Assembly (NCBI GenBank): GCA_028753945.1
Contig: JAPNXP010000013.1
Coordinates: 3,782,001-3,846,000 of the forward strand
Reading direction: 5' to 3'
Origin: Hexactinellida sp. DTS-2022
Lineage: Eukaryota > Porifera > Hexactinellida
DNA: 64,000 nucleotides
Shown here: one piece after another, positions 7,371-64,000 of the stretch
How positions within the stretch are numbered: the first letter of the stretch is position 1
Layout: every line of letters begins with the position of its first letter
The notes under the pieces: model-generated
The model's input: only the letters and a program-made list of their open reading frames with translations
Databases searched by the model: none
Told to the model about the DNA's origin: nothing
Position numbers and translations under genes: made by a program

Positions 7371-7404
7371 CCTTGCAAGAGTCACTGGGTTTGTAACTTT
7401 GTAT

Positions 7405-11961: not shown

Positions 11962-12111
11962 GAAGCCCTATCGAAATATGAAACCATACAGTAATGGAAC
12001 TGAAAACGTGGCATTATTAGAAGGGGGACCATTTGGCCCAAAAATATAGAAATTTGGGCGAAATGGTCCCCCCGGACCAAATATCCAGGGGGGACCATTT
12101 GGACCAGAACA
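11962..12111. repeat. Element A right terminal inverted repeat
   Basis: About 150 bp, inverted copy of 7405-7562, with a few substitutions and small indels. Confidence 0.85.
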
Positions 12112-12229
12112 ATATTATTTATTGAATTAATTATTCTGCATCCGAATTTGTTAAAGTCGGTTTATTATCTTCTAACGTTTAGCTAATTAGCAATATTATA
12201 TTAAACATATTATATATATATTATATTCA

Positions 12230-36176: not shown

Positions 36177-36229
36177 ACTGTGCCGACTATACTATAGTAT
36201 AGTGGCCCAGTTCTAATCTTACTGCCTTG
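36177..36229. repeat. 54-bp palindrome-bearing element, isolated copy
   Basis: ACTGTGCCGAC, then the self-complementary core ACTATACTATAGTATAGT, then GGCCCAGT and a short tail ending CTGCCTTG. Preceded by ATTATT. Same unit as the cluster at 44970-45417. Confidence 0.85.
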
Positions 36230-36445: not shown

Positions 36446-36805
36446 CATATCCTACTCAAATCAGGCCTCACAATGGAATGGGGATTTTGGACCAGGGATG
36501 CGGTCGAAGCCGGAATACCAAAATTTTGAAACCTATATTTTGGAATAAATTTGTTGACCTGGTATTTGAAAACAACAAGGTTTTTACAAATTGGGTCATA
36601 TTTTTTTACAAACTAGTTCATGACCGGAAACATTATTTTTAATTTTTGATATTTTAATTCACCCATAATATATAGCATTATATCCTGTTATAAAATCAAA
36701 TTTTATTTTTTAATTAATATTCGTATATTATATCTATCTTTTTTGCCCCAGTCGATATTTTCCCCGATTTATACCAGATACTATTTAATTATTAAACACC
36801 AGCAG

Positions 36806-40880: not shown

Positions 40881-43800
40881 TCCGATGCCGAATAATGCTC
40901 TGCACTAATTGCAAAAGCAACTATTATCCGGATGATCCAAGTATACAGGTATTCGAACTACCTAACCAACCCAAATAATTACGACAGTAGTTGCTCAACG
41001 CTCTTCATCGCGAAAGGAGCAGAAATATCGTATAACTTCACTAGTTACCTTAAAAGAGTTTCTATTCCCTATCACTCTACCTGAAAATGGCTCTCTTGGT
41101 TGTCAGATGACCTTGTTCTACTAATCAAACTTTTACAATCTGATGATCTCACAATTTCTATTCTTTCATTCATATCCAATGATTCCTCTCTAAATGTCCG
41201 GGGCTTTCAGAATGACCAGGAACTCCGCTTACTATAAACACCTTAAATGATACTAGGCAAATCACGTCCTTAATTAATAAACTAGAAAGTAAATCTTTTC
41301 ATACATCTTTAAAAAAATTGCTTCTGATATTCAAACGAGACAATTCAAATACGAAAAGTTATCCAAAATTGGAACCAGAAATATTTGAGTCATCTGAATT
41401 TCCAAATAATGATCATGCTGAAAACACTACGGCAGTATCTCGCCTACAATTTATTCTCTGCCAATTAGAAAATGTATTCGCCCCTAAGAATAGAAGAAGG
41501 TACAATATTATTACTCAAGTAATTGCTCTTAAATCTCATCTCATATCGCCAGCCTGCTATAACTATCGTCAATCATTAGACTGATTAGTCCTACCTCATT
41601 ATCATACTCTTCAAAAGCTTTACTCGTCTCTGGGCCTTGACTCAGAGTTCATGACATATTTGAAGCAATCAACTTCTCTCTTTTTTCCACAAGAAAAGAA
41701 GGTTATTTTGCAGATGGACGAAATACATGTGAAGTCTGACTCATCCTACAAAGATGGACGAATAATTGATCCTCCTCTTATCACAGACACTCCAACAAAA
41801 TTTGTATTCGCGATAATGACATTAAGTTTATATAAGAAATGGTCAACGATTGTTCGTTTACTTCCTCTTTCTAAAACTACTTTTCAGGAACTATTTCCCA
41901 TTAATAGTAAGGTAATATATGACGTCGAGTTAAATGGGCACTCCGTTCAAATCCTATGTACAGAAAACAATCCTTCAAATCAGTGGTTCTCAAACTTTTA
42001 AAAAGAAATGGGGTTTTGGCCCCCTATGTGATTTAGAAACTTTTGCGGTCCCCAAGAATTTCTGCACAAAAATATCTAATCCAGTATCGTTACTTTGAAA
42101 AAACTATAAAGGATAACAGCAAAAGAGCAAAAGCTACCTTTATGTTACATACAAAATCTAAAATTACAACTGTGCAGACATGTAGAATTTGAATTGGAGG
42201 CACTGTAGATAGGGTTTTGTGGGAATAGTGCTCCATTAGATATTCAATGTATCAGAACAGCTAAAATTTTAGATTTTTTTCTTCCCTTGGGCTGAATCCG
42301 AATTAGAGGGTCTATAATCCTTGCTGAATTCATTGCAATTAATTCTAATAAAGTATTTATTTGTGCTAGATATCCGGGCATTGCGAATATTTTTAATAAC
42401 TGTATATTTATTACGGAATGTAATACCCTATTTTAAAAAAATTTAAAGAATCCAAGGAGGATGCAGGATTTGTTACAAGAGGGTCGTGAATTTATAAAAC
42501 AATGGCAACCCTAGCTGGGGTCCTGAGGGGCGAGGTAATCCCCCAGGACGGTCTTGGGGCGGAGCTCTGGAATGCTGATAAAATATAATGCCACTATCCC
42601 AATTTCCAATACATTACCAAAGTGATTCTTAGAGGTTATTCTTGACATTTCGAAATTCAAGGGACCATATGACACACTGTACCACAAGGAGTGGCATCTA
42701 ACAAACCAAGGCAATGAAATCAGTCCTGGCCCACTACATAGTAGTCGGCAGAGTAAACTATGTTACTAACTTTTTCTAGTCACATTAAATGATTACTAAT
42801 TCCAAAATGTATACTAATTATTTTTGGGTTTTAACTACATCTCGCGGTCCAACAAACGGACCCCAGTTTGAGAATCACTGCTTTAAATGTACATTTGTTC
42901 AAACTTTTCTCTCCAGACAACAATACTCTATAACTCCGTATATCACATCCTGCGGATGTAACTAGATCCTTGGTTCTAATTTTGATTTCGTCCAATATTT
43001 TGAAGAGCGTTCGAAACAACTGGATAAATCGTAAAAACATTAATAAAACCTTCCTCTATCCCGGTTTTAAAATATTTATTCAACTCGTACCATTATCCTC
43101 CCCATATTCACGCCGACTCTTTTAATGACATTCGCGATCTCTACCGTTCAGGTAAACACAAGGTGTGGAAACATGATCCACATTTGACTGCGAAATCATG
43201 TTGGCCAACTACATTGGAACGCCAAAATGTTAAATTAGCACTCAAAATCTTCGACAAGCCTACTATGGCTGCCATTTCAATTACACTCACTCACAACTAC
43301 CAAACGCACGACTTTATCGATATCATAGTGAAATTGTGGAAAAATTTTAATATAAATCGAACTAATAAAGATCATCTTAGGATAATTTCTCAAGAGTGCT
43401 CAACTGCTCATTCACAATGATAGCCGACTTTCTTTTATCACCACGGATAGTTAACTGGATTGATGCTTGAAAAGTTTTAACTGGAAAGGAAGGTAAACTA
43501 AGTCCAGAAACATTTAGGAGTCTTAAACATTCTACCTGGCAAAACCTTTCTCGTAAATCACTTAACTTGCGAATTCGGATTTAAATATCTCCTATCATAC
43601 TTCTTGCAGAAAGATGCAATCGAACACCACTTTGGATTATATAGAATGTTGTCTGGTGCAAATTATTACATTTTATTGTGTCAAATTCTCGAATCAGAGT
43701 ATCGCTTAAAAGTATCAAACATGCTCAAGTTATTTTTATCAAAAACAATCTCTTAAACAAACTTCTTTGCAATTTTTGATACAATCCTTTTTTTCTCCTG

Positions 43801-44969: not shown

Positions 44970-45417
44970 ACTGTGCCGACTATACTATAGTATAGTGGCC
45001 CAGTATTGGAATCACTGCCTTTATTTTTATTATTATTTTTACTGTGCCGACTATACTATAGTATAGTGGCCCAGTATTAGAATCACTGCCTTTATTATTT
45101 TTATTTTTACTGTGCCGACTATACTATAGTATAGTGGCCCAGTTCTAATCTTACTGCCTTTAATAATATTATTTTATTTATTACTGTGCCGACTATACTA
45201 TAGTATAGTGGCCCAGTATTAGAATCACTGCCTTTATTACTGTGCCGACTATACTATAGTATAGTGGCCCAGTATTAGAATAACTGCCTTTATTATTACT
45301 GTGCCGACTATACTATAGTATAGTGGCCCAGTATTGGTCTTAGTGCTTTGGTATATTATTATTACTGTGCCGACTATACTATAGTATAGTGGCCCAGTTC
45401 TAATCTTACTGCCTTGG
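44970..45417. repeat. Cluster of seven 54-bp palindrome-bearing elements in TTA/T microsatellite
   Basis: Units begin at 44970, 45041, 45109, 45183, 45239, 45298 and 45364. Each is ACTGTGCCGAC + palindrome ACTATACTATAGTATAGT + GGCCCAGT + a tail of two kinds (TTAGAATCACTGCC or TCTAATCTTACTGCC, with one TTGGTCTTAGTGC). Spacers are TTA/TTTA runs of variable length. All are in the same orientation. No coding capacity. Confidence 0.9.
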
Positions 45418-45429
45418 TTATTATTATTA

Positions 45430-46625
45430 TTTTCCTTCCGTATCCTCTCCACAGAACAGAGTTTAATTAACTAAGGGCCCAAAATCTCAGGATATGTGTC
45501 TCATGGGTTACAGATGTGCACCTGGGGTTACGATTTTTGATTAAACTTTTTTGGACACATTTTTGCACCTGTTTAATATTGAAACAGGAACAATAAATAG
45601 TGCGCGAATATTTAATTTATATGCATTCGATAGAGAATTAAATTCTACACCTTTTCACAGTGCACGAATTTTTAAATTGGGTTTCGTTTGTGCCACAATT
45701 GAGTTGCAAGTTTCCTTTGTTTACTAACACTTCAGTTCAATTGAAAGTGTTAAATCAGATTCTATTGTTTCAACTTGTGAAAATTATATTGATTCTACTT
45801 GTGAGATCGAGTAGGCTTCTATTTTCCAATTGAAAACTAAGATAATATATTTCATAACAACGACAGATTATGTGATTATATTTATTTCTGCTAGGAATAT
45901 TCTTGAACAATGGATAGATGACATATTTAATTCTAATTAATTCGCTCTGTGTTTAACGTATAAAGATGGTTCCAAATAGATTTTGGGATTATCGAGTGCG
46001 CTGAATTCAAATATGATAGTGAAATTCAATTTAAATTAATAATTATTGCAAATAATTGAACTTAATTTATTTTGATGTACATAATTTTGGTGTTAAATTA
46101 TTAATAGATTAATTAAATATTTATACTAATTATCTAAATTTCATTAATCTCAGAAATGATACAAGATAGAGAAAAACTTCCAATTTATCAATTGATCCTT
46201 ATGCCACGTAACACCTCTACAAATGGGTCTTGACACCTTGAGGTGATGATGACATCGTCAAAAAAATGTGTTTTTACAATTTTGTGAATTATATATTTCG
46301 AATGGGTTGGTTGGATTTGGGTGATCACCCAACACGCACATAAAAAATGCTGACTCATCACTTAATATATTCTACTGAAACTTGAATATCTCTCAAATGA
46401 AGTGAGCTAAATAGAAACTTCCACCACTCTAAGGGTCGTTGCCTTCCGAAACACCTTTCTGAAATAATTTAACACCTTTAGAGTGATGATGACTTGGCGA
46501 AAAAAAATCCAAAATTGCAGCTGTGCCACAAGCATGTTCCTTTGGAGGCACTATCAATAAACAACCAACAAAATATAGTGCTACCAATGGACATGCGTCC
46601 GCACAGGCTGCAATTTTGGATTTTT
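45430..46625. repeat. Array unit 1
   Basis: Head TTCCGTATCCTCTCCAC, then the GGGTTACAGATGTGCACCTG block; terminal hairpin 46502-46625. Confidence 0.8.
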
Positions 46626-46646
46626 ATTATTATTATTATTATTATT

Positions 46647-48070
46647 TTTTCTCCGTAGACGGTGCCCTGGCCTGAGCTTTATAGTTGATGGGCTGAAACT
46701 TGGCATGTAGGTGCGTATGGACCGTCTAATTTGCACCTGGGGTTACGATTTTTGATTAACGAATTTTTGACACATCTTTAACACCTTTCAAAATTTGTCT
46801 GGTCCATAACTCAAAATATGTTTTACTAAACCCCCAAATTTTATTTCACATTTGGATTCACCATAAAATTCTGCGTCTGATGGGAGAGGAATATTTTCAA
46901 AAATATGTTTAATTTCTGCCATAAATGGGATTGAAATTTCTTTGTTTACTCACACTTCAATTTCAGTAAAAGTGTTAAATCTAATTCTATTGTTTCAACT
47001 TGTAATAATTATATTGATTTAACTTGTTAAATCTTACTCTATTGTTTCAACTTGAGATAAATATATTGATTCAACTTATAAATTCCAGCTGGCTTCTATT
47101 TAATTGTAGTATTACTATACAATGGATTAAATAAAATATAATGATATAAGGAATTTGTTGACTAAACTCAAATCACCGTGGATAACATTGCTAAAATAAA
47201 TAACTAATAATTTAATTTATTATCAATAAGTAATGAATGAATGGCATTAAACTAAAGATGGTTTATGATAGAACCATTAAGATTTTACATACCACAACAA
47301 CGACAGATTATGTGATTATATTTACTTCTGCGTTAATATTATTGCACTGTTAATATACTGACGTAATTAATTATAATTAATTCAGTCAGTATATGACTTA
47401 TATAGATGCTTCCAATTTGTTTATTAGGGGTTATCGAGTGTGCGGAATTGAAATTTGATGGACAAATTAATTTATTTATTATTTATGACAAAATAATTAA
47501 ACTTAATAAATATAAGTTGACATTGAAATTGGTGTTAAATTATTAATTTATTAATTAAATATTTATACTAATTAGGTAAATTTCATTAATCTCAGAGATG
47601 ATACAAGATAGAAACAAACTTTCAATTTATCAATTGGTCCTTATGGCACGTGCCACCTATACAAGTGGGTCTTGACACCTTGAGGTGATGATGACATCGT
47701 TAAAAAAATGTGTTTTTACAATTTTGTTAATTCGATATTAAAAATGGGTTAGTTCATGTTGGGTGATGACCCAACACTCACATAAAAAATGCTGAGTCAT
47801 CAGTTGTTATATTCTACTCAAACTTGAATATCGCTAAAAGGAAGTGAACTAAAACGAAACTTCCACCACTCTAAGGGTCGATGCCTTCTGTAACACCTTT
47901 TTGAAATGATTTAACACCTTTATAGTGATGATGACTTGGCGGAAAAAAAATCCAAAATTGCATCCTGTGCCGACAGCATGTTCCATTGGAGGCACTATCA
48001 ATAAACCACCAACAAAATATAGTGCCACCCAAGGAACATGCGTCGGCACAGGATGCAATTTTGGATTTTA
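46647..48070. repeat. Array unit 2
   Basis: Head TTCTCCGTAGACGGTGCCC, then GGGCTGAAACTTGGCATG; hairpin 47943-48070. Confidence 0.8.
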
Positions 48071-48078
48071 TTATTATT

Positions 48079-48132
48079 ACTGTGCCGACTATACTATAGT
48101 ATAGTGGCCCAGTATTGGTCTTAGTGCTTTGG
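48079..48132. repeat. 54-bp palindrome-bearing element
   Basis: Sits between the hairpin of unit 2 and the head of unit 3, flanked by TTATTATT runs. Confidence 0.88.
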
Positions 48133-48151
48133 TTATTATTATTATTATTAT

Positions 48152-49352
48152 TAGTCCGTATCCTCTACACACAACAGAGTTTAGTTAACTAGAAGCCCAA
48201 ATTTTTAGGATGGGTGTCTCATGGGTTACAGATGTGCACCTGGGGTTAAGATTTTTTATTAACAAATTTTTTACAAATTTTTAACACCTTTCAAAATTTG
48301 TCTGGTTCTTAACTCAAAAAATGTTATATTAAAGCCACAATTTTTTTGACCATTGGATTCACGATAAAATTCTGCGTCTGATGGGAAAAAATGCAAATTT
48401 TAGAATTGGTAATTCATGCCATAAATGGGGGTTGAAATTTCTTTGTTTACTAACACTTCAGATCAATTGAAAGTGTTAAATCTAATTATATTGTTTCAAC
48501 TTGTGATTATAATATTGATTCAACTTGTGAGATCGAGTAGGCTTCTATTTCCAATTGTAAACTAGGATTCTACATTCCATAACAAAGACAGATTATTTGA
48601 TTATATTTATTTCTGCTTAGAATATTCTTGAACAATGGATACATGAAATATTTAATTCTAATTAATTCGCTCTGTGTTTAACGTATAGAGATGGTTCCAA
48701 ATAGATTATTGGGGTTATAGAGTGCGTTGAATTCAAATATAATAGTGAAATTCAATTTAGATTAATAATTATTGCAAATAATTGAACTTAATTTATTTTG
48801 ATGTACATAATATTGGTGTTAAATTATAAATAGATTAATTAAATATTTATACTAATTATCTAAATTTCATTAATCTCAGAAATGATATAAGATAGAAACA
48901 AACTTTAAATTTATCAATTGGTCCTTATGGCACGTACCACCTATACAAGTAAATCTTGACACCTTGAGTTGATGATGACATCGTCAAAAAAATGTATTTT
49001 TACAATTTTGTGAATTAAATAATTCGCATGGGTTGGTTGGAGTTGGGTGATCACCCAACATGCACATAAAAAATGTTGACTCATCACTTATTATATTCTA
49101 CTGAAACTTGAATATCTCTCAAATGAAGTGAGCTAAAACGAAACTTCAAACTCACTAAGGGTCGTTGCCTTTTGAATCACTTTTCTGAAATAGTTTAACA
49201 CCTTCATAGTGATGATGACATGGCGAAAAAAATCCAAAATTGCAGCCTGTGCCGACAGCATGTTCCATTGGAGGCACTATCAATAAACCACCACCAAAAT
49301 ATAGTGCCACCAAAGGAACATGCGTCGGCACAGCTGCAATTTTGGATTTTTT
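48152..49352. repeat. Array unit 3
   Basis: Head GTCCGTATCCTCTACAC, same subtype as unit 1; hairpin 49225-49352. Confidence 0.8.
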
Positions 49353-49376
49353 TTATTATTTTTATTTCTCCGTAGC

Positions 49377-50785
49377 AAGTGCCCTGGCCACACCTGTATA
49401 CATACATAGAGGGCTGAAACTTGGCATGTAGGTTCGGAGTCGAAGTCTAATTTGCACCTGGGGTTACGATTTTTGATTAACAAATTTTGGACACATCTTT
49501 AACACCTTTCAAAATTTGTCTGGTCCATAACTAAAAAGATGTTTTACTAAACCCCCAAATTTTATTTCATATTTGGATTCACCATAAAATTCTGCGTCTG
49601 ATGGGAGAAGAAACTTTTCAATAAAGGGGTCAATTTCTGCCATAAATGGGGGTTGAAATTTCTTTGTTTACTCACACTTCAATTTCAGTAAAAGTGTTAA
49701 ATCTAATTCCATTGTTTCAACTTGTAATAATTATATTGATTTAACTTGTTAAATCCTACTCTAGTGATTCAACTTGCGATAATTATATTGATTCAACTTA
49801 TAAATTCCAGCTGGCTTCTATTTAATTGTAGCATTACTATACAATGGATTAAATTAAATTAATTTATATAAGGAATTTGTTGACTCAACTCAACCAACCA
49901 TGGATAACATTGCTAAAATAAATTACTAATAATATAATTTATTATCAATACATAATGAATGAATGGCATTAAACTAAAGATGGTTTATGATAGAACCGTT
50001 AAGATTTTACATTCCACAACAACGACAGATTAAGTGATTATATTTATTTCAGCGAGAATATTCTTGCACAATTAATGACTGACTTAATTAATTATAATTT
50101 ATTCATTTTGTATTTAACTTATAGACGGTTCCAAATAGATTATTGGGGTTATCGAGTGCGTGGAATTCAAATATTATAGTGAAATTCAATTTAAATTAAT
50201 AATAATTGCAAATAATTGAACTTAATTTATTTTGCTGTATATAATAATGGTGTTAAATAATAAATAAATAAATTAAATATTTATACTAATTAGATAAATT
50301 TCATTAATCTCAGAGATGATACAAGATAGAAACAAACTTTCAATTTATCAATTGGTCCTTATGCCAGGTACCACCTATACAAGTGGGTCTTGACACCTTG
50401 AGGTGATTATGACATCGTCAAAAAAATGTATTTTTACAATTTTGTTAATTCGATATTTAAAATGGGTTAGTTGATGTTGGGTGATGACCCAACACTCACA
50501 TACAAAATGCTGAGTCATCAGCTATTATATTCTACTCAAACTTGAATATCTCTAAAATTATATGAACTAAATGGAAACTTCCACTACTCTAAGGGTCGAT
50601 GCCTTCTGTAACACCTTTTTGAAATAATTTAACACCTTCATAGTGATGAAGACATGGCGAAAAAAAAACCAAATTGCAGCCTGCGCCGACAGCATGTTCT
50701 TTTGGAGGCACTATCAATAACCCACCAACAAAATATAGTGCCACCAAAGGAACATGCGTCGGCACAGCTGCAATTTTGGATTTTT
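49377..50785. repeat. Array unit 4
   Basis: Head TCTCCGTAGCAAGTGCCC, subtype of unit 2; hairpin 50659-50785. Confidence 0.8.
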
Positions 50786-51607
50786 TTTGCCCTGGCCTGA
50801 GCTTTATAGTTGATGGGCTGAAACTTGGCATGTAGGTGCGATGGGACCGTCTAATTTGCACCTGGGGTTACGATTTTTGATTAACAAATTTTTGACACAT
50901 CTTTAACACCTTTCAAAATTTGTCTGGTCCATAACACAAAATATGTTTTACTAAACCCCAAAATTTTATTTCACATTTGGATTCACCATAAAATTCTGCG
51001 TCTGATGGGAGAAGAAAACTTTCAATAAAGAGTTTTATTTCTGCCATAAATGGGGGTTGAAATTTCTTTGTTTACTCACACTTCAGTTTCAGTATAACTG
51101 TTAAATCTAATTCCATTGTTTCAACTTGTAATAATTATATTGATTTAACTTGTTAAATCTTACTCTATTGATTCAACTTGCGATAATTTAATTGATTTAA
51201 CTTATAAATTGCAGCTGGCTTCTATTTAATTTACCATACAATGGATTAAATAAAATAATATAATATAAGGAATTTGTTGACTTAATTCAACTCAACCGTG
51301 GATAACAATGCTAATATACATAACTAATAATATAATTTATTATCAATACATAATGAATGAATGGCATCAAACTCAAGATGGTTTAAGATAGAAACAAACT
51401 TCAAGTTTATCTACCGTTCCTTGTGACCCGGACCAATTGACAAATGCTTCTTCACACCTTGGGCGTTGATGACTTGGCGAAAAAAAATCCAAAATTGCAG
51501 CCTGTGCCGACAGCATGTTCCTTTGGAGGCACTATCAATAAACAACCAACAAAATATAGTGCCACCAAAGGAACACGCGTCGGCACAGGGTGCAATTTTG
51601 GATTTTT
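50786..51607. repeat. Array unit 5, head-truncated and short
   Basis: Starts directly at GCCCTGGCCTGAGC after the T run, lacking TCTCCGT. The body is shortened to about 820 bp; hairpin 51480-51607. Confidence 0.75.
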
Positions 51608-51610
51608 ATT

Positions 51611-52447
51611 TCTCCGCAGCAGGTGCCCTGGCCACACCTGTATACATTGAGGGCTGAAACTTGGCATGTAGTTGCGGAGGGACCGTCTAATTTGCACCTG
51701 GGGTTACGAATTTTTATTAAGAAAATTTTGACACCTCTTTAACACCTTTCAAAATTTGTCTGGTCCATAACTCAAAATATGTTTTAATAAACCCCAAAAT
51801 TTTATTTCATATTTAGATTCATCTTAAAATTCTGCTTCTGATGGGAGAAGAAAATTTGTTAAAATTGGTTTATTTTCTGCCATAAATGGAGGTTGAAATT
51901 CCTTTGTTTACTCAACACTTCAATTTCAATAAAACTGTGAAATCTAATTCCATTGTTTCAACTTGTAATAATTGTATTGATTAACTTGTTAAATCTTTCA
52001 CTATTGTTTCAACTTGCGATAATTAAATTGATTCAACTTATAAATTCCAGCTGGCTTCTATTTAATTGTAGTATTACTATACAATGGATTAAATAAAATA
52101 TAATAATATAAGGAATTTGTTGACTCAACTCAAATCACCGTGGATAACATTGATAAAATAAATAACTAATAATATAATTTATTATCAATTCATAATGAAT
52201 GAATGGCATTAAACTCAAGATGGTTTATGATAGAAACAAACTTCAAATATATCTACCGTTCCTTGTGACTCGGACCAAATAACAAATGGTTCTTCACACC
52301 TTGGGCGTTGTTGACTTGGCGAAAAAAATCCAAAATTGCAGCCTGTGCGACAGCATGTTCCTTTGGAGGCACTATCAATAAACCACCATCAAAATATAGT
52401 GCCACCAAAGGAACATGCGTCGGCACAGGCTGCAATTTTGGATTTTT
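51611..52447. repeat. Array unit 6, short
   Basis: Head TCTCCGCAGCAGGTGCCC; body shortened as in unit 5; hairpin 52322-52447. Confidence 0.75.
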
Positions 52448-52501
52448 ACTGTGCCGACTATACTATAGTATAGTGGCCCAGTATTGGTCTTAGTGCTTTG
52501 G
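52448..52501. repeat. 54-bp palindrome-bearing element
   Basis: Directly follows the unit 6 hairpin. Tail TTGGTCTTAGTGCTTTGG. Confidence 0.88.
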
Positions 52502-52513
52502 TTGTTTTTTTTT

Positions 52514-52841
52514 TCTCCGTGTCGCCTCCCCAGGCTAAACCATTAGTGCTAGAGCTCTGAGATTTTCAGGATAGGTGTCTGGTTGTTGATTAATGTGCAC
52601 TTTGTGGCCTGATTTTTCAATTTCGACTTGGGAAAATTTTTACCGGACTTTTAGCTTTTTTTGTCCCATAAGAAAATAAAAGCAATAACAAGAAAAAATT
52701 TCGAATCATTAGTATCAGAAAAGTATTTTGCAACTGATAGCTCTTCACGATTTTTTAATCCGTCCTCATTTTCCTGAGAATTAGGCTCAAAGTTGCCACA
52801 ATTCACCCTTAACTTTCTAAAATCGTAAATTCATTAATATT
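52514..52841. repeat. Array unit 7, 3'-truncated
   Basis: Head TCTCCGTGTCGCCTCCCC, third head subtype. Breaks off after TAAATTCATTAATATT, where the next 54-bp element begins. No hairpin. Confidence 0.75.
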
Positions 52842-52957
52842 ACTGTGCCGACTATACTATAGTATAGTGGCCCAGTATTGGTCTTAGTGCTTTGGTTTTT
52901 TTTACTGTGCCGACTATACTATAGTATAGTGGCCCAGTATTGGTCTTAGTGCCTTGG
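52842..52957. repeat. Two 54-bp palindrome-bearing elements
   Basis: Copies at 52842-52895 and 52904-52957, separated by a T run, sitting inside the body sequence of unit 7. Confidence 0.88.
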
Positions 52958-52978
52958 ATGTTTTTTTGTTTTTTTTTT

Positions 52979-54391
52979 TCTCCGTGTCGCCTCCCCAGGC
53001 TAAACCATAAGTGCTAGAGCTCTGAGATTTTCAGAATAGGTGTCTGGTTGTTGATTAATGTGCACTTCGTGGCCTGATTTTTCAATTTCGACTTGTGAAA
53101 TTTTTTAACGGGACTTTTAGCTTTTTTTGTCCCAAAGAGAAATAAATGCAATAACAAGAAAATTTTTAGAATCATTAGTATCAGAAAAGTATTTTGCAAC
53201 TGATAGCTCTTCACGATTTTTTTAATCCGTCCTCATTTTCCTGAGAATTAGGCTCAAAGTTGCCACAATTGACCCTTAACTTTCTAAAATCGTAAATTCA
53301 TTAATATTCAATTATGCAATTATTTCGTGGTTTCGATGAATAACTACTATTTAATATTTATGAATAATTCAATTAGATTCAGTGTTATTTCGATTCAAGT
53401 TATTGTTGATATTATAATCACAATAAAGAATTCTAGTATATATGAATAACTAATTTACATTCAATAGCTATTACTATACAAATCTATTTCTGATATCATA
53501 GTTACAATAATTTATTCTATTTATATGAATAATTCAATTTGATTCATTAGTATATAAATCGATTTCTAATACAATAGTTGTATTAAAGTTTTCTCCTATA
53601 TGAAAATTCAATTTCACTCAACAGTTATTCAATTTCAGAACGATTTCTGATATTCAAACAATGGATTAATGAGATGGGATATCTATTTGTATAAATATTT
53701 GTCTATTTGTGTGCTTGGTGCCCGATATGTATTAGAGTGTAAGGGGGGGGGGTTTATAAAGCATTTACGTATAATGGAAATATAAACTTAATCCCATATG
53801 TCATTCAAAGTAAGCGAGTATGCTGATTTCAATTTTAAAACGATGACTGATATACAAACAATGGATTAATGAAATGGAATATCTATTAAATGACTATTCG
53901 TCTGTGTGCGTGTTTGGTGGTCGAATTGTATTAGAGTGATAGGGGGTTATAATAGGAATATAAACTAGATCCCTTTTGTCATTCGAAGTAAACAAGTATG
54001 CTGATTTCCAATTTTAAACAGTATATTAATATTCAATGGATTAAAGCAAATTAAATTAAATTGGAAATTTGTTTACTTAACTCAACTCAACTCACATTGC
54101 TAAAATAATTAACTATTTATATCATTTATTATCTATACATAATGAATGAATGGCATTAAACCCAAGATGGTTCAAGATAGAAATAATTTAAAATCAACAA
54201 TGGTTCCTTTGTCCCGTACAACTTGTTAAATGAGACTAAACACTATGAGGTGTTCATGACATGGCGAAAAAAATCCAAAATTGCAGCTGTGCCACAAGCG
54301 TGTTCCTTTGGAGGCACTATCAATAAACCACCACCAAAATATAGTGCCACAAAAGGAACATGCGTCGGCACAGCTGCAATTTTGGATTTTT
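52979..54391. repeat. Array unit 8
   Basis: Head TCTCCGTGTCGCC; body with a G-run near 53742; hairpin 54266-54391. Nearly identical to unit 9. Confidence 0.85.
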
Positions 54392-54445
54392 ACTGTGCCG
54401 ACTATACTATGGTATAGTGGCCCAGTATTGGTCTTAGTGCCTTGG
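54392..54445. repeat. 54-bp palindrome-bearing element
   Basis: Between units 8 and 9. One base of the palindrome is changed (ACTATACTATGGTATAGT). Confidence 0.88.
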
Positions 54446-54462
54446 ATTTTTTTTTATTTATT

Positions 54463-55877
54463 TCTCCGTGTCGCCTCCCCAGGCTAAACCATAAGTGCTA
54501 GAGCTCTGAGATTTTCAGGATAGGTGTCTGGTTGTTGATTAATGTGCACTTCGTGGCCTGATTTTTCAATTTCGACTTGGGAAAATTTTTAACGGGACTT
54601 TTAGCTTTTTTTGTCCCACAAGAAAATAAATGCAATAACAAGAAAATTTTTAGCATCATTAGTATCAGAAAAGTATTTTGCAACTGATACCTCTTCACGA
54701 TCTTTTTAATCCGTCCTCATTTTCCTGAGAATTAGGCTCAAAGTTGCCACAATTGACCCTTAACTTTCTAAAATCGTAAATTCATTAATATTCAATTATG
54801 CAATTATTTCGTGGTTTCGATGAATAACTACTATTTAATATTTATGAATAATTCAATTAGATTCAGTGTTATTTCGATTCAAGTTATTGTTGATATTATA
54901 ATCACAATAAAGAATTCTAGTATATATGAATAACTAATTTACATTCAATAGCTATTACTATACAAATCTATTTCTGATATCATAGTTACAATAATTTATT
55001 CTATTTATATGAATAATTCAATTTGATTCATTAGTATATAAATCGATTTCTAATACAATAGTTGTATTAAAGTTTTCTCCTATATGAAAATTCAATTTCA
55101 CTCAACAGTTATTCAATTTCAGAACGATTTCTGATATTCAAACAATGGATTAATGAGATGGGATATCTATTTGTATAAATATTTGTCTATTTGTGTGCTT
55201 GGTGCCCGATATGTATTAGAGTGTAAGGGGGGGGGGTTTATAAAGCATTTACGTATAATGGAAATATAAACTTAATCCCATATGTCATTCAAAGTAAGCG
55301 AGTATGCTGATTTCAATTTTAAAACGATGACTGATATACAAACAATGGATTAATGAAATGGAATATCTATTAAATGACTATTCGTCTGTGTGCGTGTTTG
55401 GTGGTCGAATTGTATTAGAGTGATAGGGGGTTATAATAGGAATATAAACTAGATCCCTTTTGTCATTCGAAGTAAACAAGTATGCTGATTTCCAATTTTA
55501 AACAGTATATTAATATTCAATGGATTAAAGCAAATTAAATTAAATTGGAAATTTGTTTACTTAACTCAACTCAACTCACATTGCTAAAATAATTAACTAT
55601 TTATATCATTTATTATCTATACATAATGAATGAATGGCATTAAACCCAAGATGGTTCAAGATAGAAATAATTTAAAATCAACAATGGTTCCTTTGTCCCG
55701 TACAACTTGTTAAATGAGACTAAACACTATGAGGTGTTCATGACATGGCGAAAAAAATCCAAAATTGCAGCTGTGCCACAAGCGTGTTCCTTTGGAGGCA
55801 CTATCAATAAACCACCACCAAAATATAGTGCCACAAAAGGAACATGCGTCGGCACAGCTGCAATTTTGGATTTTTTT
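54463..55877. repeat. Array unit 9
   Basis: Head TCTCCGTGTCGCC; hairpin 55751-55877. From about 54723 to 55875 I see almost no difference from unit 8. Confidence 0.85.
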
Positions 55878-55884
55878 TTTGTTT

Positions 55885-57322
55885 TCTCCGTGTCGCCTCC
55901 CCAGGCTAAACCATAAGTGCTAGAGCTCTGAGATTTTCAGAATAGGTGTCTGGTTGTTGATTAATGTGCACTTCGTGGCCTGATTTTTCAATTTCGACTT
56001 GAGAAATTTTTTAACGGGACTTTTAGCTTTTTTGTCCCACAAGAAAATAAATGCAATAACAAGAAAATTTTTAGAATCATTAGTATCAGAAAAGTATTTT
56101 GCAACTGATAGCTCTTCACGATCTTTTTAATCCGTCCTCATTTTCCTGAGAATTAGGCTCAAAGTTGCCACAATTCACCCTTAACTTTCTAAAATCGTAA
56201 ATTCATTAATATTCAATTATGCAATTATTTCGTGGTTTCGATGAATAACTACTATTTAATATTTATGAATAATTCAATTAGATTCAGTGTTATTTCGATT
56301 CAAGTTATTGTTGATATTATAATCACAATAAAGAATTCTAGTATATATGAATAACTAATTTACATTCAATAGCTATTACTATACAAATCTATTTCTGATA
56401 TCAAAGTTACAATAAGTTATTATATTGTAAATGAATAATTCAATTTGATTCAATAGCTGCTACTATATAAAGCAATTTCTAATACTAGTTGTATTGAAGT
56501 TTTTTCCTATATGAAAATTCATTTTCACTCAACAATTATTCAATTTGAGAACGATTTCTGATATTCAAACAATGGATTAATGAGATGGAATATCAATTTG
56601 TATAAATATTTTTCTATGTGTGTGCTTGGTGCCCGAAATATATCAGAGTGTAAGGGGGGGGTTTATATCGCATTTATAATGGAAATATAAACTTAATCCC
56701 ATATGTCATTCAAAGTAAGCGAGTATGCTGATTTCAATTTTAAAAAGATGACTGATATACAAACAATGGATTAATGAAATTGAATATCTATTAAATGAGT
56801 ATTCGACTGTGTACGTGTTTGGTGCCCGAATTGTATTAGAGTGATAGGGGGTTATAATGGGAATATAAACTTAATCCCTTTTGTATTCGAAGTAAACAAG
56901 TATGCTGATTTCCAATTTTTAACAGTGTATTAATATTCAATGGATTAAAGCAAATTAAATTAAATTGGGAATTTATTTACTTAACTCAACTCACAGTGGA
57001 TAACATTGCTAAAATAATTAACTAAATAATATAATTTATTATCAATACATAATGAATGAATAGCATTAAACTCAAGATGGTTCTAGATAGAAATACACTT
57101 CAAATTCAACAATCGTTCCTTTGTCCCGTAACAACTTGTTAAATGAGTCTCAACACCATGAGGCTCAACACCATGAGGCGTTCATGACATGGTGAAAAAA
57201 AAAATCCAAAATTGCAGCTGTGCGACAGAATGTTCCATTGGAGGCACTATCAATAGACCACCACCAAAATATAGTGCCACCAAAGGAACATGCGTCGGCA
57301 CAGGCTGCAATTTTGGATTTTT
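55885..57322. repeat. Array unit 10
   Basis: Same head subtype; several percent diverged from units 8 and 9. Hairpin 57195-57322. Small local duplication CAACACCATGAGG at about 57149-57178. Confidence 0.82.
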
Positions 57323-57327
57323 TTTTT

Positions 57328-58958
57328 TCTCCGTGTCGCCTCCTCAGGCTAAACCATAAGTGCTAGAGCTCTGAGATTTTCAGGATAGGTGTCTGGTTGT
57401 TGATTAATGTGCACTTTGTGGCCTGATTTTTCAATTTCGACTTGGGAAAATTTTTAACGGACTTTTAGCTTTTTTTGTCCCATAAGAAAATAAAAGCAAT
57501 AACAAGAAAAAATTTCGAATCATTAGTATTAGAAAAGTATTTTGCAACTGATAGCTCTTCACGATTTTTTTTAATCCGTCCTTATTTTCCTGAGAATTAG
57601 GCTCAAAGTTGCCACAATTCACCCTTAACTTTCTAAAATCGTAAATTCATTAATATTCAATTATGCAATTATTTCGTGGTTTCGATGAATAACTACTATT
57701 TAATATTTATGAATAATTCAATTAGATTCAGTGTTATTTCGATTCAAGTTATTGTTGATATCATAATTACAATAAAGAATTCTTGTATATATGAATAGTT
57801 AATTTACATTCAATAGCTATTACTATACAAATCAATTTCTGATATCATACTTACAATAAAGTATTATATTGTAAATGAATAATTCAATTTGATTCAATAG
57901 CTGCTACTATATAAATCGATTTCTAATACATAGTTGTGTTAAAGTTTTCTCCTATATGAAAATTCAATTTCACTCAACAGTTATTCAATTTAAGAACGAT
58001 TTCTGATATTCAAACAATGGATTAATGAGATGGAATATCTATTTGTATAAATATTTGTCTATGTGTGTGCATGGTGCCCGAAATGTATTAGAATGTACGG
58101 GGGGTTTATAACTCATTTATTTCAAGTTGTAATAATTATATCGATTCAACTTGTGAGATCGAGTAGGCTTCGATTTTCTAATTGAAAATTATTATTATAT
58201 ATTCCATAACAACGACAAATTATGTGAATTATTTCCTTCTTCAAGAATACTCTTAAACAATATTAATATACTGACGTAATTAATTATAATTAACTCAGTC
58301 TATAATTGACATAATATTATATAGATGCTTCAAATTTGTTTATTAGGGATTATCGAGTGTGCGGAATTGAAATTTGGTTCCAAATTAATTTACTTAGTAA
58401 ATTCAAGTTTACATTGCAATTGGTGTTAAATTATTAACAATATTTATAAATATTTATACTAATTTGCTAAATGGCATTAATCTCAGAGATGATGCAAGAT
58501 AGAAACAAACTTACAATTTATCAATTGATCCTTATGCCACATAAAACCTCTACAAATGTGACTTGACACCTTGAGGTGATGATGACATCGTTAAAAAAAT
58601 GTGTTTTTACAATTTTGGTAATTATATATTCGAATGGGTTGGTTGGTGGTGGGTGATCACCCAACACGCACATAAAAAATGCTGAGTCATCGCCTCTTTT
58701 TTTCTACTGAAAATTGGGTATCTTTTAAATGAAGTGAGCTAAAATGAAACTTCCAACTCACTAAGGGTCGTTACATCCCGAAACACCTTTCTGAATTAAT
58801 TTAACACCTTCATAGTGATGATGACATGTCGAAAAAAAATCCAAAATTGCAGCTGTGCAGACAGCATGTTCCATTGGAGGCACTATTAATAAACCACCAC
58901 CAAAATATAGTGCCACGCAAGGAACATGCGTCGGCACAGGCTGCAATTTTGGATTTTT
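57328..58958. repeat. Array unit 11, chimeric
   Basis: Head and first half like unit 10. After about 58120 it switches to the body type of units 1-4 (GTGAGATCGAGTAGGCTTC). Hairpin 58832-58958. Confidence 0.78.
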
Positions 58959-60199
58959 TTCAATTATGCAATTATTTCGTGGTTTCGATGAATAACTATA
59001 TTTATGAATAATTCAATTAGATTCAGTGTTATTTCGATTCAAGGTATTGTTGATATTATAATCACAATAAAGAATTCTAGTATATATGAATAATTAATTT
59101 ACATTCAATAGCTATTACTATACAAATCTATTTTTGATATCATAGTTACAATAAGTTATTATATTGTAAATGAATAATTCAATTTGATTCAATAGCTGCT
59201 ACTATATAAATCGATTTCTAATACATAGTTGTATTAAAGTTTTCTCCTATATGAAAATTCAATTTCACTCAACAGTTATTCAATTTCAGAACGATTTCTG
59301 ATATTCAAACAATGGATTAATGAGATGGAATATCTATTTGTATAAATATTTGTCTATGTGTGTGCTTGGTGCCCGAAATGTATTAGAGTATAAGGGGGGT
59401 TTTTTATAACGCATTAATAATGGAAATATAAACTTAATCCCATATGTCATTCTAAGTAATAAGTATGCTGATTTCAATTTCAAAACGATAACTGATATAT
59501 AAACAATGGATAAAGAGATGGAATTTCTAGTTTATGACTATTCGTTTGTGTGCTTGTTTGGTGCCCGAATTGTATTAGAGTGATAGGGGGTTCTAAAACG
59601 CATTTATAATGGAAATACAGTGGAACTCGCTTAGTACGTACTCGCTTAGTACGTACTCGGCTTAAGACGTACTCTCGGGAATTACGTACTGTTCTCTAAT
59701 AACCGATTTTTCCTCCTATCTGATCCATTATAAATGATTCGGTTAATACGTACTCGGATAAGACGTACCTCGGATAAGACGCACCAATTTTTATTCCCAA
59801 TTAAATAAAATGTATGTATTTTAATTCTGTTAGTACGTACACTAGAAGTAATTATTTCGACTTATGGATTATGCATACGGATAAGACGTACTCGGTTAGT
59901 ACGTACTTTTTCTTGTCTCCCAAGGTGGTACGTCTTAACCGAGTTCTACTGTATAAACTTAAACTCAAGATGGTTTAAGATAAAAATAAACTTCAAATTC
60001 AACAATAATTCCTTTGTCCCGTACAAATTATTGAATGAGTCTAAACACCATGTGATGTTCATGACATGGCGAAAAAAATCCAAAATTGCAGCCTGTGTCG
60101 ACAGCATGTTCCATTTGAGGCACTATCAATAGACCAAGACCAAAATATAGTGCCACCAAAGGAACATGCGTCGGCACAGGCTGCAATTTTGGATTTTTA
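58959..60199. repeat. Array unit 12, head-truncated, with MITE
   Basis: Begins in mid-body (CAATTATGCAATTATTTCGT) straight after the unit 11 hairpin; contains the MITE at 59618-59951; hairpin 60072-60199. Confidence 0.78.
59618..59951. mobile_element. pogo-like MITE, 334 bp (GTACGT family)
   Basis: CAGTGGAACTCGCTTAGTAC to the complement of CAGTAGAACTCGGTTAAGAC, TA on both sides. Inverted relative to the copy at 31949-32358; it has a small duplication of CTCGCTTAGTACGTA at its left end. Confidence 0.87.
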
Positions 60200-60206
60200 T
60201 TTTATT

Positions 60207-61572
60207 TCTCTGTGTCGCCTCCCCAGGCTAAACCATAAGTGCTAGAGCTCTGAGATTTTCAGGGTAGGTGTCTGGTTATTGATTAATGTGCACTTCGTGG
60301 CCTGATTTTTCAATTTCGACTTGGGAAAATTTTTAACGGGACTTTTAAGCTTTTTTTGTCCCATAAGAAAATAAAAGCAATAACAAGAAAAAAATTCAAA
60401 TCATTAGCTTCAGAAAAGTATTTTGGAACTGATAGCTCTTCACGATTTGTTAAATTCGTCCTCACTTTCCCGATAATTAGGCTCAAAGTTGCCACAATTC
60501 ACCCTTAACTTTCTAAAATCGTAAATTCATTAATATTCAATTATGCAATTATTTCGTGGTTTCGATGAAGATCTACTATTTATGAATAATTCAATTGATT
60601 CAGTGTTATTTCGATTCAAGTTATTGTTGATATAATAATCACAATAAAGAATTCTTGTATATATGAATAATTAATTTACATTCAATAGCTATTTCTATAC
60701 AAATCAATTTCTGATATCATAGTTACAATAATTTATTCTATTTATATGAATAATTCAATTTGATTCAATAGCTGTTGCTATATAAATCGAATTCTAAATA
60801 CAATAGTTGTATTGATGTTTTCTCCTATATGAAAATTCAATTTCACTCAACAGTTATTCAATTTCAGAACGATTTCTGATATTCAAACAATGGATTAAAT
60901 ATCTATTTGTATAAATATTTTTCTATGTGTGTGCTTGGTGCCCGAAATGTATTAGGGTGTAAGGGGGGGTTTATAACGCTTTTATTTCAAGTTGTAATCA
61001 TTATATTGATTCAACTTGTCAGATCGAGTAGGCTTCGATTTTCTAATTGAAAATTATGGTTATATATTCCAAAACAACGACAAATTTTGTGAATATATAT
61101 CCTTCTTCAAGAATACTCTTAAACAATATTAATATACTGACGTAATTAAATATAATTAACTGTCTATAATTGACATAATATTATATAGATGCTTCCAATT
61201 TGTTTATTAAGGATCATCGAGTGTGCGGAATATATAATTCAAATGGGTTGGTGGTGGTGGGTGATCACCCAACAAGGCATATTAATATGCTGAGTCATCA
61301 CATATTATTTTCTACTGAAACTTGAATATCTTTGAAATGAAGTGAGCTAAAATGAAACTTCCAACTCTCTTAAGTTAAGGGTCTTAACATTCCGAAACAC
61401 CTATCTGAATTAATTTAACACCTTCATAGTGATGATGACATCTTGAAAAAAAATCCAAAATTGCACCTGTGCTGACAGCATATTCCATTGGAGGCACTAT
61501 CAATAGACCACCACCAAAATATAGTGCCACCAAAGGAACATGCGTCGGCACAGCTGCAATTTTGGATTTTTG
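60207..61572. repeat. Array unit 13, chimeric, last of the array
   Basis: Head TCTCTGTGTCGCC; switches body type after about 60985, as in unit 11; hairpin 61446-61572. The P copy 3 flank follows directly. Confidence 0.78.
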
Positions 61573-61694: not shown

Positions 61695-64000
61695 ATGCCC
61701 AACAAGTGTTCGGCCCCCGGATGTCGGAGTAATTACGCAGGAGAACCGCATACTCCAGTATTTAAGTTGCCAAGTGGTCCACCTGAGTTCGTTAATCGTT
61801 GGCTCCGATCGCTCTGTAGAGAAGATATCGTTGACTTAAAAATGTGTTTGTATGTTCGAAACATTTTCTCGACGAAGAAATTCAGACCAGCTTTTCAATC
61901 CTTCAACCTGATGGATCACACTTAGAAGTACCTGCTAAGCCGAAATTGCACAAAGAAGCGGTGCCAAGATTCCTACCCGGCTGTCCACCTCATCTTTCTT
62001 CGTCATCTGACACCAAACTTTTGAGATTTGATCGATCTTTGAGAGAACAGCAATTGATTGATACTGCTATAGATGAGAGTCTAATACACTATAACCGAGA
62101 CAAAGAGCTTTTTCAAATCACCACACTGCAAGACTTAGTATCCAAAACAAAGCACTTGGATTTGCCTAATCATTGGATAGTTTGGATTTCTGAGGATAAT
62201 TCCTTTAATTTGATCAAACCTTCTATAACAAGTAACAGTTTGATTTCGATTCTATGCTCCTTAACCATTACCGAAACATTACATACTATTGGTTTCTATG
62301 AAGGTGTACGCATTACTCTTTCTCTCACTAGGATAAATGATATTCATCAACTTAACATTTTGCTTAAAGAAGTTGAACACCATTCTATCCCAGTTAATTC
62401 CCCTGAGACACTCCAACACCATGTCAGAGAAGCACCAAAAGCATTCATCAAGCAATCGACTTACTCCCGCCTTCAATTAGCGAAGATTCTGGGAACCAAC
62501 AGCTTGTATTATTACGTCTTCAGTCCATTCTTTGCTAACTGGACAACGTTTTGATCGCGAAAACTATGAGGCGATACAACATCGAAACTCTTGTCTTATA
62601 TCTCAAATGCCAGCTTATCTCGCCAGTTTGCTATAGATATCTTCAATCCTTGGACTGTCTATCATTGCCACATCTTTCCACACTTAAACGCTTGTATTCA
62701 AATTTTGGTTTGGATGCTGAGTTTACCAACTATCTCAAACAATCTGCCACTCAGTTCAACAAATGGGAGCGAAATGTTGTAATTCAGATGGATGAAATTC
62801 ACGTAAAATCAACTTTTACATACAAGGGAGGTAAGGTAATAGGATCTTCTTTGAATCCTACTGATTCAGCAAAAACCGTTTTTGCCTTCATGGTATCAAG
62901 TTTGTCGAAAAGATGGTCCAGTATTGTTCGTTTACTGCCCTGTGCCAACTCATCTGCTGGTGTACTCTTTCCAATTATCAAAGAGGTTATTCAAGACGTA
63001 GAAGCATGTGGACTCTCTGTTCAAGTTTTGTTACCGATAATTACCCTATGAACGTGAACATTTTCAAGTTGTTTTCTCCTAACCGAATCCTAGAGCCTAT
63101 CGTTCCTCACCCTATGGACTTAAATCGACCATTATTTTTGCTTTTCGACTTCGTTCACATACTCAAATCGAGCCGTAATAACTGGCTAAATCAAACAGAT
63201 TACAATAAAACGTTTACTTAGTATCCAGATTATGAGAAGATCCAAGTTACGAACACTGCAGTTTTTGAAGAGATTCGACGATTGTACAAAAGTGACCAAC
63301 ACTCTGTTGCTAAATTAGCTCCAAGGTTAACCTCTAAAGCTTGTTGGCCTTCCACATTTGAAAGACAAAATGTTTCTTTAGCCTTAAGGATATTTGATGA
63401 ATCAACAACCGCTGCATTGAATGTTAGCTACCAATCGCGCAGGGTTGTATCAACTCATTTTGAGTTGGCAAAACAACTCATTTTTGTCTGCCAACTCATT
63501 CAAATTTCCTTCACCAACTCATTCAACTCATTCATTTTGCTATTACCAACTCATTCAACTCATTCAAGAAAATGAGTTGATTCTCCCAACTCATTTTTTA
63601 TTAAACTAATTGTAACTAACGTATATCTTAAATCTTTAGTTTATTAATACATTTACAGCTGCATAGGTCGGCTCTCAAAAGTGATCCGGCCAAATTTGGA
63701 TCTCCCTGGGCATTAATGTTACGACAAAGTGAAAGTTGTCTGGCCATGGTCAGAAGTAGGTTTGTATCAACTCATTTTGAGTTGGCAAAACAACTCATTT
63801 TTTGTCTACCAATTCAACTCATTCATTTTGCTGTCACCAACTCATTCAACTCATTCATTTTGCTGTTACCAACTCATTCAACTCATTCAAGAAAATGAGT
63901 TGATTCTGCCAACTCAAAATGAGTTGATACAACCCTGCAATCGCGATACCACCTTTCTACAAATTCACAAACTGCAGACTTTATTACCATTATATGTAAT
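61695..64000 (+). pseudogene. THAP/P-type transposase, copy 3, cut by the window edge
   Basis: Best-preserved copy. A THAP finger from the Met at 61695 (CSAPGCRSNY, VFKLP) continues after a one-base shift near 61845 (CSKHFLDEEI). The linker runs to about 62554. After another shift, 62551-63030 has RRYNIETLVLYLKCQLISPVCYRYL and the first catalytic acid in IQMDEIHVKS. A shift near 63030 leads to VTDNYPMNVNIFKLF (second acid region) and HILKSSRNNWL. A stop at about 63219 and the hAT MITE at 63440 interrupt it. Coding resumes in the same frame at 63946 (YHLSTNSQTADFI) and leaves the window. P transposases bind DNA through THAP and cut through an RNase-H-like core. Confidence 0.8.
63440..63937. 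mobile_element. hAT MITE, 498 bp, with perfect 8-bp duplication
   Basis: Ends CAGGGTTGTATCAACTCATT and its exact complement. CAATCGCG flanks both sides (63432-63439 and 63938-63945). The interior is dominated by AACTCATTCA and AAAATGAGTTG repeats, present as two similar halves (63446-63600 and 63760-63930) around a short unique centre. Confidence 0.95.

Follow-up and report, generated by a model that had tools for sequence, protein, structure and literature searches.

Putative non-autonomous Helentrons in a glass sponge genome form head-to-tail arrays, probably by insertion behind one another's 3' hairpins

The window analyzed here, a stretch of 64,000 nucleotides from Hexactinellida sp. DTS-2022 (contig JAPNXP010000013.1), contains a head-to-tail array of hairpin-ended units, whose identification as non-autonomous Helentron derivatives (HINEs) is supported by sequence comparison. 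The array probably grew by sequential, strand-specific insertion of Helentron family members behind existing hairpins, and it is apparently the landing of new copies just behind older hairpins that stacks the units head to tail. To our knowledge, the mode of target choice and the cause of tandem pile-up in Helitrons and Helentrons are unsettled. The rule proposed here, landing of each new copy behind a hairpin that carries a 10-bp core, is simple and testable, and the array shows a direct path from a transposon to satellite-like arrays.

Twelve hairpins of 121 to 123 bp, with arms of ~52 nt, close 12 units (46504 to 61570), confirming the tandem array described in a first-pass annotation of this DNA; one unit is interrupted by another insertion. 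Unit lengths range from 823 to 1629 bp by the boundaries drawn here, and the 1.4 kb given previously is therefore only a typical figure. Head subtypes differ as described, with three (A, B, and C) mixed within the single array, and the reported lack of coding capacity and of a terminal inverted repeat was borne out: the array has no stop-to-stop frame of ≥150 aa, and comparison of heads with tails gave no such repeat. Units end in GGATTTT within T-runs. Folded as single-stranded DNA, one hairpin reached -54.4 kcal/mol (shuffled mean, -12.6; z, -16), and the genome holds several thousand of these hairpins. Two features had been overlooked: a 55-bp palindromic module (PAL), which begins the array, and the nesting of U8 to U11 and three PALs inside another unit. 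The features are as follows.

36177 to 36229, +, solitary PAL module, compared with paralogous places
44970 to 45430, +, seven tandem PAL modules, the left terminus of the entire insertion (boundary from empty sites)
45437 to 46628, +, U1, head type A, hairpin 46504 to 46624
46650 to 48072, +, U2, head type B, hairpin 47947 to 48069; matching the autonomous element at 92% over its first 460 bp
48079 to 48150, +, PAL module between U2 and U3
48155 to 49354, +, U3, head type A, hairpin 49229 to 49350; 97 to 99% copies on other contigs
49367 to 50788, +, U4, head type B, hairpin 50663 to 50784
50789 to 51611, +, U5, type B, head without its first ~14 nt, hairpin 51484 to 51606
51612 to 52448, +, U6, type B, the joined two ends of the autonomous element
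52449 to 52505, +, PAL module between U6 and U7
52512 to 52839, +, U7 5' part, head type C, broken at AATAT^TCAATT
52840 to 58959, +, nested insertion in U7, PAL at left and hairpin at right; in order, PAL, PAL, U8 (52981 to 54391), PAL, U9 (54463 to 55877), U10 (55886 to 57327), U11 (57329 to 58957)
58960 to 60198, +, U7 3' part, hairpin 60075 to 60197
60207 to 61571, +, U12, head type C, hairpin 61450 to 61570, the right end of the array (boundary from empty sites)

The U7 3' part also carries a MITE-like insert (59618 to 59951). A T or TTA run and then a TCCGT head had been reported after each hairpin. The head lies straight after the T/TTA run at six of the 12 (with a TCCGT base changed in two), and one PAL module precedes the head at three. 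The others are followed by a head shortened by ~14 nt, the second half of the interrupted unit (58960), and DNA outside the array. The description thus holds for nine of 12 junctions if a PAL is permitted in between, and fails at three.

PAL consists of a CTGTGCCGAC palindrome, ~16 to 20 nt, and a T/TTA run. Besides the seven copies at the left end of the array, copies are located at 48084, 52453, 52847, 52909, and 54397, with the solitary one at 36182. Six paralogous places (75 to 83%) span the site of the solitary copy, and all three examined lack a PAL. Elsewhere, a PAL alone is inserted in an A unit without target duplication, and a sub-array of 40 copies precedes the element on contig C2; longer repeated blocks are found inside PAL sub-arrays. 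PAL and the 3' hairpin have an exact 10-bp inverted core in common (P = 0.007 by simple letter shuffles). Of the 78 extracted hairpins, 72 carry an exact GTCGGCACAG on the 3' side and 26 an exact copy of its partner in the 5' arm. Covariation was determined for 58 of the 78 and is modest: both partners vary in eight of 49 pairs, a number reached by none of 500 shuffles (mean, 2.6), but slid controls gave up to 10. A search for catalytic or other known RNA yielded only three sub-threshold microRNA matches.

The whole 16.6-kb array is inserted in a T-run of another repeat. Besides the window's own two halves, the joined array flanks match nine places in the genome nearly end to end at 89 to 99% and a tenth at 84%. 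All seven places examined run through the T-run without the array (TTTTT in six and TTTT in one), and comparison with these empty sites confirmed the reported absence of a target duplication. The nested insertion (52839/58960) likewise lacks a duplication, and growth by insertion, which the first-pass annotation had weighed against a satellite, is upheld by both. A satellite had been expected to occur only in uniform arrays with no dispersed copies; this is not the case, because matches to one unit alone are found on 15 of the 18 contigs listed and the array has empty counterparts. The empty sites refute a satellite origin of the window array. Units and full elements lie in T-rich sites, with a single orientation within most arrays. 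An apparent orientation bias on contig C1 in the hairpin and PAL lists was dropped, as the head list covers both strands with even totals; the bias is probably an effect of how the list is cut.

An element combining Rep and helicase and sharing the head or hairpin was found in the genome. Helitron Rep sequences fall into two groups, and all 10 loci examined from one group (~104 bits) lie among units of the window type. A window-type head is located upstream of a frame of 1,695 to 1,701 aa in nine of these, and the tenth (C1b) has the hairpin downstream of the Rep/helicase frame. The full-length autonomous element is 9.3 kb. Its frame contains DUF6570 (56.9 bits), Helitron_like_N (PF14214, HUH Rep; 101.6 bits), and, in the same frame, a PIF1 helicase (PF05970; 88.1 bits), all above the cut-off. 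On the C-terminal side, an AP-endonuclease is indicated by Exo_endo_phos_2 (PF14529; 29.4 bits, cut-off 27.4) and PF03372 (27.8 bits, cut-off 24.5). A match to OTU (PF02338), a protease type that accompanies Helentrons as an accessory, is weak (15.0 bits, below the cut-off of 23.3), and PDB chain 6dx2 matches the same stretch (E value, 8e-5). The family holds long transposase frames, 20 reaching at least 1,650 aa among the frames listed for the ~104-bit group, as well as near-identical copies on different contigs. The autonomous copies on C1 and C18 share 99.78% identity across 9,346 bp and have differing neighbors on both sides, which points to recent movement. This pair differs exactly by PAL versus hairpin, and both outer junctions are sharp and in T-runs. 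Another autonomous element, running from PAL to hairpin, is nested in a B unit on C7 without duplication.

The autonomous copies bear the same head and hairpin as the array units, in agreement with the earlier leading guess of a non-autonomous Helentron or Helitron. U6 corresponds to positions 3 to 460 and 8959 to 9316 of the 9.3-kb copy, with 20 bp at the join. In alignments to one full copy (C1a), type B units match both ends, type A units give a weak match for the 5' part and a good one for the 3' end, and type C units match essentially at the 3' end only. Ends shared with an autonomous Helentron (both ends, for type B) and the lack of a long frame are HINE traits. Helentron traits present are a Rep domain fused to a PIF1-type helicase, a C-terminally fused AP-endonuclease, T-rich insertion without target duplication (at empty sites and nested insertions), and a palindrome near the 3' end, here far longer than described. 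A CTRR end is absent, as stated previously, and its absence is expected of Helentrons. The GGATTTT 3' end in T-runs does not fit a canonical Helitron (5'-TC...CTRR-3', inserted between A and T). No subterminal inverted repeat between head and tail was matched beyond chance in 13 elements. At 10 bp, the inverted core of PAL and hairpin is shorter than the subterminal inverted repeats described for Helentrons (11 to 15 bp, with identity over at least 11 bp). In the literature collection searched, no paper combines Helentron and sponge.

In two scripted samples, a PAL or hairpin lies directly upstream of 98 of 100 heads. All 40 B heads, from a sample of one contig that favors the first heads of clusters, follow a hairpin (23) or PAL (17). 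At long loci, 58 of 60 heads follow a PAL (27) or hairpin (31), with one at an edge and one other. Among the best 40 A-type matches, inspected by eye, 38 adjoin a PAL or hairpin, one is separated from it by several hundred bp of inserted DNA, and one head is cut off. Blocks with delimited outer ends have a PAL at the left and the big hairpin at the right; the head at position 11798 of the C13 locus, which lacks both a PAL and a hairpin within 170 bp upstream, is a possible exception.

The HUH Rep may recognize the CTGTGCCGAC/GTCGGCACAG core of PAL and the 3' hairpins and nick the T-run 3' of it. Nicking at the element's own 3' hairpin would end rolling-circle transfer, and the same nick at a resident genomic hairpin would provide a landing site for the incoming strand. 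Incoming strands would join there, so that head-to-tail stacks of elements would build up on the T-rich strand. PAL would act as a detachable 5' end signal permitting entry into T-runs of other DNA, and PAL-less copies would survive because the hairpin of the upstream neighbor substitutes for it. Some of the growth probably also comes from read-through and unequal exchange. A stricter, two-part form of self-targeting is a tentative possibility: the 55-bp PAL would enter any T-run and serve as a landing pad, and bodies, running from head to hairpin, could integrate only on the 3' side of a CTGTGCCGAC hairpin, either a PAL or an older copy's 3' end. Each element's terminator would then be the one target open to its successor.

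Rolling-circle read-through, in which concatemers from a missed terminator or a recopied circle are inserted as one block, is the explanation of Helitron tandem arrays in the available portion of PMC4067079. It accommodates the single PAL end and single hairpin end of both the array in the window and the insertion nested in U7. U8 and U9 are 99.4% alike (99.0% over 1494 bp with their PALs), and loci L002 and L003 on contigs C1 and C4 match at 99.8% across a PAL, one unit, and no less than 1.1 kb of the unit after it; read-through or local duplication therefore also occurs. However, read-through predicts siblings, whereas the closest relative of 60 units was adjacent in five cases, in the same locus in seven, and in another locus in 48. 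Neighbors of the same type are barely closer than strangers (identity of 0.898 for adjacent units, n = 29, versus 0.883 between loci, n = 687). Read-through is insufficient alone for arrays mixing subtypes A, B, and C, and spacers and the presence of PAL change from junction to junction. As the explanation of the arrays, it is unlikely. Far less probable still is a satellite produced by unequal exchange and replication slippage with incidental Helentron copies. Head-to-tail order and the near-regular spacing of ~1.4 kb in some C-type arrays speak for it, the longer repeated blocks in PAL sub-arrays are of the kind expected from such processes, and a satellite mode may apply to PAL sub-arrays and some C-type arrays. 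Dispersed arrays, empty sites, nested insertions, irregular unit lengths, and near-identical autonomous copies on separate contigs all argue against it.

It is also somewhat unlikely that PAL, head, body, and hairpin always form one element, with PAL-less junctions arising by later recombination between T/TTA runs. Inserted blocks with a readable left end do begin with PAL (the C13 head possibly excepted), L002/L003 and C1a/C5 have a PAL variant and spacer in common, a recombinant hairpin-PAL sequence is present on the C12 minus strand, and Helitrons with repeated 5' termini are described in Fusarium (PMC5148889, in part). Nevertheless, a hairpin directly precedes roughly half of the heads (23 of 40 and 31 of 60), and the PAL-versus-hairpin difference of the C1/C18 pair, with its sharp T-run junctions, is explained more simply by transposition of a PAL-less unit. 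Sequential insertion behind resident hairpins is the preferred reading.

The family resembles Helentrons and HINE/DINE-1 elements as far as these are described in the accessible part of Thomas et al. 2014 (PMC4067079): a Rep-helicase with a C-terminal AP-endonuclease and, as a weak candidate here, an OTU-like stretch; a T-rich target without duplication, a variable number of terminal Ts, and a 3' palindrome; and deletion derivatives retaining both ends, with a microsatellite in some copies. Unlike the Helentrons described there, the sponge family has 3' palindrome arms of ~52 nt rather than 5 to 10 bp, an inverted core of just 10 bp, and a detachable 5' palindrome (PAL) that can build up into arrays (40 copies in one case), and nearly every sampled head follows a hairpin. 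Helitrons of Fusarium oxysporum are similar in having 5' termini of 31 to 85 nt doubled or combined, and one copy inserted beside another, but differ in target (TNAT^A), 3' ends, and a constant number of 3' Ts; long terminus arrays or dependence on an upstream hairpin were not found in the portion of PMC5148889 available.

Tandem or adjoining Helitron copies are described in bat, silkworm, maize, and rice, in the available parts of PMC4067079, PMC5876387, and PMC5148889, and head-to-tail rolling-circle arrays are common to these and the sponge family. Distantly related Helitrons directly adjoin in bat and maize, and non-sibling neighbors therefore need no special rule there (PMC4067079, in part). 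Tandem Helitrons elsewhere are ascribed to bypassed termination in the same parts of these three papers, whereas most units here are non-siblings with junctions behind a hairpin. Helraiser, a canonical Helitron (PDB 7lcc), has a related PIF1-type helicase and matches the helicase part with an E value of 2e-19, with several PIF1 helicases matching better. The sponge element differs from Helraiser in its lack of CTRR, a T-run instead of an AT target, and the extra endonuclease (canonical features partly after PMC5148889).

A genome search with a Helitron Rep model returned two groups of Rep genes. Units of the window type are present at all 10 loci fetched from the lower-scoring group (frames of ~1,700 aa), and the Rep/helicase element sharing the window head or hairpin, for which the first-pass annotation had proposed a search, was thereby found. 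This group includes at least 20 frames of ≥1,650 aa, with 150 of 292 candidates scored. A window-type head lies upstream of the Rep frame at nine of the 10 loci, and at the tenth (C1b, on contig C1) a hairpin lies downstream of the frame. Type A heads precede one of the 10 frames (on contig C5) and type C heads none. The best-delimited copies, C1a (likewise on C1) and that on contig C18, read head, leader, three frames, and hairpin over 9.3 kb; they share 99.78% identity over 9,346 bp and have different neighbors on both sides. A domain search of the C1a frames, with the last frame entered minus its final nine residues, identified DUF6570, Rep, PIF1 helicase, AP-endonuclease, and a sub-threshold OTU match, and the helicase part resembles both PIF1 helicases and Helraiser. 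By the Helentron features described in the portion of Thomas et al. (PMC4067079) covered here, the family is a Helentron. Two stretches of the autonomous element, positions 3-460 and 8959-9316, make up the type B unit U6 and are joined there by 20 bp. The second Rep group scores about 220 bits, with frames of up to 1,930 aa.

Within the window, 12 hairpins (121-123 bp; arms reaching up to about 52 nt) lie between 46504 and 61570. They close 12 units, which range in length from 823 to 1629 bp and fall into three head types; one hairpin folds as single-stranded DNA at -54.4 kcal/mol, versus -12.6 for shuffles. No stop-to-stop frame of ≥150 aa occurs within the array. The head-to-tail, noncoding organization with variable heads and lengths described in the first-pass annotation is borne out, and that annotation overlooked a 55-bp palindromic module, PAL (ACTGTGCCGAC TATACTATAGTATA GTGGCCCAG, followed by 16-20 nt and a T/TTA run). 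Seven copies of PAL open the array on its left side, and others lie between some units. Genome-wide, there are 6,459 PAL sites (≤1 mismatch), 7,977 hairpin 3' arm sites (≤3 mismatches), and 3,090 B heads and 242 C heads (≤2 mismatches), while the backward-read control patterns gave 0 sites in all four cases. Since both arms of one hairpin may match, the arm sites represent perhaps 4,000-8,000 hairpins.

When joined, the flanks of the array have matches at 10 further genomic places, not counting both halves of the window site, and all seven of those fetched read through the join, with five Ts in six and four Ts in one. The filled site reads TTTGCCTTTTT-[ACTGTGCC ... GGATTTTT]-GAACTTGG. Therefore, a single T-run accommodates the entire 16.6-kb array, which is bounded by PAL on the left and a hairpin on the right, and there is no duplication. 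A second insertion is nested in the array, where four units and three PAL modules separate the two parts of U7:

52512-52839, U7 5' part, first 328 bp of the split unit
58960-60198, U7 3' part, remainder of the split unit

Intact type C units read uninterrupted ATTAATATTCAATTATG across this break, and the block was therefore inserted at AATAT^TCAATT without duplication. The earlier suspicion that there is no target duplication thus holds at both sites, and the empty counterparts proposed for single copies were found for the array as a whole. For a solitary PAL at 36177, six places of lower identity (75-83%) span the join, and the three that were read all lack PAL. Another lone PAL lies within a T-run of an A unit (L058), for which U1 supplies the undisturbed counterpart sequence. 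The 3' part of U7 also contains a MITE-like insert (59618-59951; ends CAGTGGAACTCG / CGAGTTCTACTG).

In the samples, nearly all heads stand behind hairpins or PALs. Of 100 B heads listed from the total of 3,090, the 40 sampled, all on C1 and mostly first of their cluster, lie directly behind a hairpin (23) or a PAL (17), with none elsewhere. Similarly, 60 heads in long loci comprise 31 behind a hairpin, 27 behind a PAL, one at a locus edge, and one behind other DNA. The best 40 A-type matches, which come from many contigs and overlap the long-locus set, adjoin a hairpin or PAL in 38 cases, judged from coordinates and four small loci; in one of the remaining two, an insert of some hundreds of base pairs separates the head from a hairpin, and the other lacks the start of the head. 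Left of the first PAL in the 17 PAL-headed B cases, seven have family-unrelated DNA ending T-rich (by eye) and one has an antisense unit. In the other direction, a head follows PAL at 10 of 14 loci mostly picked for isolated PALs (exceptions, L053, L054, L058, and L061) and follows 12 of 13 PAL clusters.

The sequence GTCGGCACAG on the 3' side of the hairpin is exact in 72 of 78 extracted hairpins, and the matching 5'-arm stretch in 26 of 78. This conservation is more telling than covariation, a check proposed in the first-pass annotation. Among 58 of the 78 hairpins, both members are altered in 8 of 49 pairs; shuffles average 2.6, and 0 of 500 attain this value. Slid versions, however, reached up to 10, and the support from covariation is therefore moderate. 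The ten bases of inverted GTCGGCACAG lie just inside the left end of PAL (P = 0.007, simple shuffles), and the heads contain no match to this inverted core. This pattern fits putative 5' and 3' recognition cores carried by PAL and hairpin, respectively. The hairpin at 42153-42277 (AAAATCTAAAATTACAACTGTGCAGAC...; z, -3.3) shares this layout but is diverged. It retains a CTGTGCNGAC-like core and probably represents the 3' terminus of another Helentron family.

If the arrays were concatemers, neighboring units should be siblings, but the closest relative of 48 of 60 units is at another locus (neighbor, 5; elsewhere at the locus, 7), and same-type identity over the first 380 bp averages 0.898 between neighbors (n = 29) versus 0.883 between loci (n = 687). 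In the C1/C18 pair, the same element follows PAL on one contig and a hairpin on the other, and its ends within the T-runs are sharp. Nevertheless, U8 and U9 are 99.4% alike, a shared block comprising PAL, a unit, and ≥1.1 kb of the following unit is 99.8% identical, some C heads are spaced near-regularly, and PAL forms sub-arrays, with 40 tandem modules and longer repeated blocks immediately before the autonomous copy on contig C2 (895600-898100). These features point to read-through and local duplication to some extent. Tandem Helitron arrays ascribed to bypassed termination, and immediately adjacent, distantly related Helitrons in bat and maize, are on record in the same portion of PMC4067079.

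We suggest that Rep may nick the T-run located 3' of a hairpin that carries the core. Nicking at the element's own hairpin would end transfer, and nicking at a pre-existing hairpin would open a landing site. If true, this would account for the common orientation, stacking, PAL-less units, and solitary PALs. PAL itself could either form the 5' terminus of the full element or be a separate mini-element used as a landing pad. In the part of the literature covered, no Helentron was met whose hairpin arms measure 52 nt, whose 5' palindromes are detachable and form long arrays, or which inserts solely at the rear of hairpins. The nearest precedent there for the PAL arrays is in Fusarium Helitrons, whose 5' termini of 31-85 nt occur repeatedly (PMC5148889, as covered).

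Three THAP/P-element-like gene stretches were recognized by eye in the window (36650-38559, about 40886-41950 [broken], and 61695-63051); the array lies a short way upstream of the third, in a repeat with 10 other matching places. Two adjacent integrase-core-like frames on opposite strands are also discernible by eye at 10594-13654.
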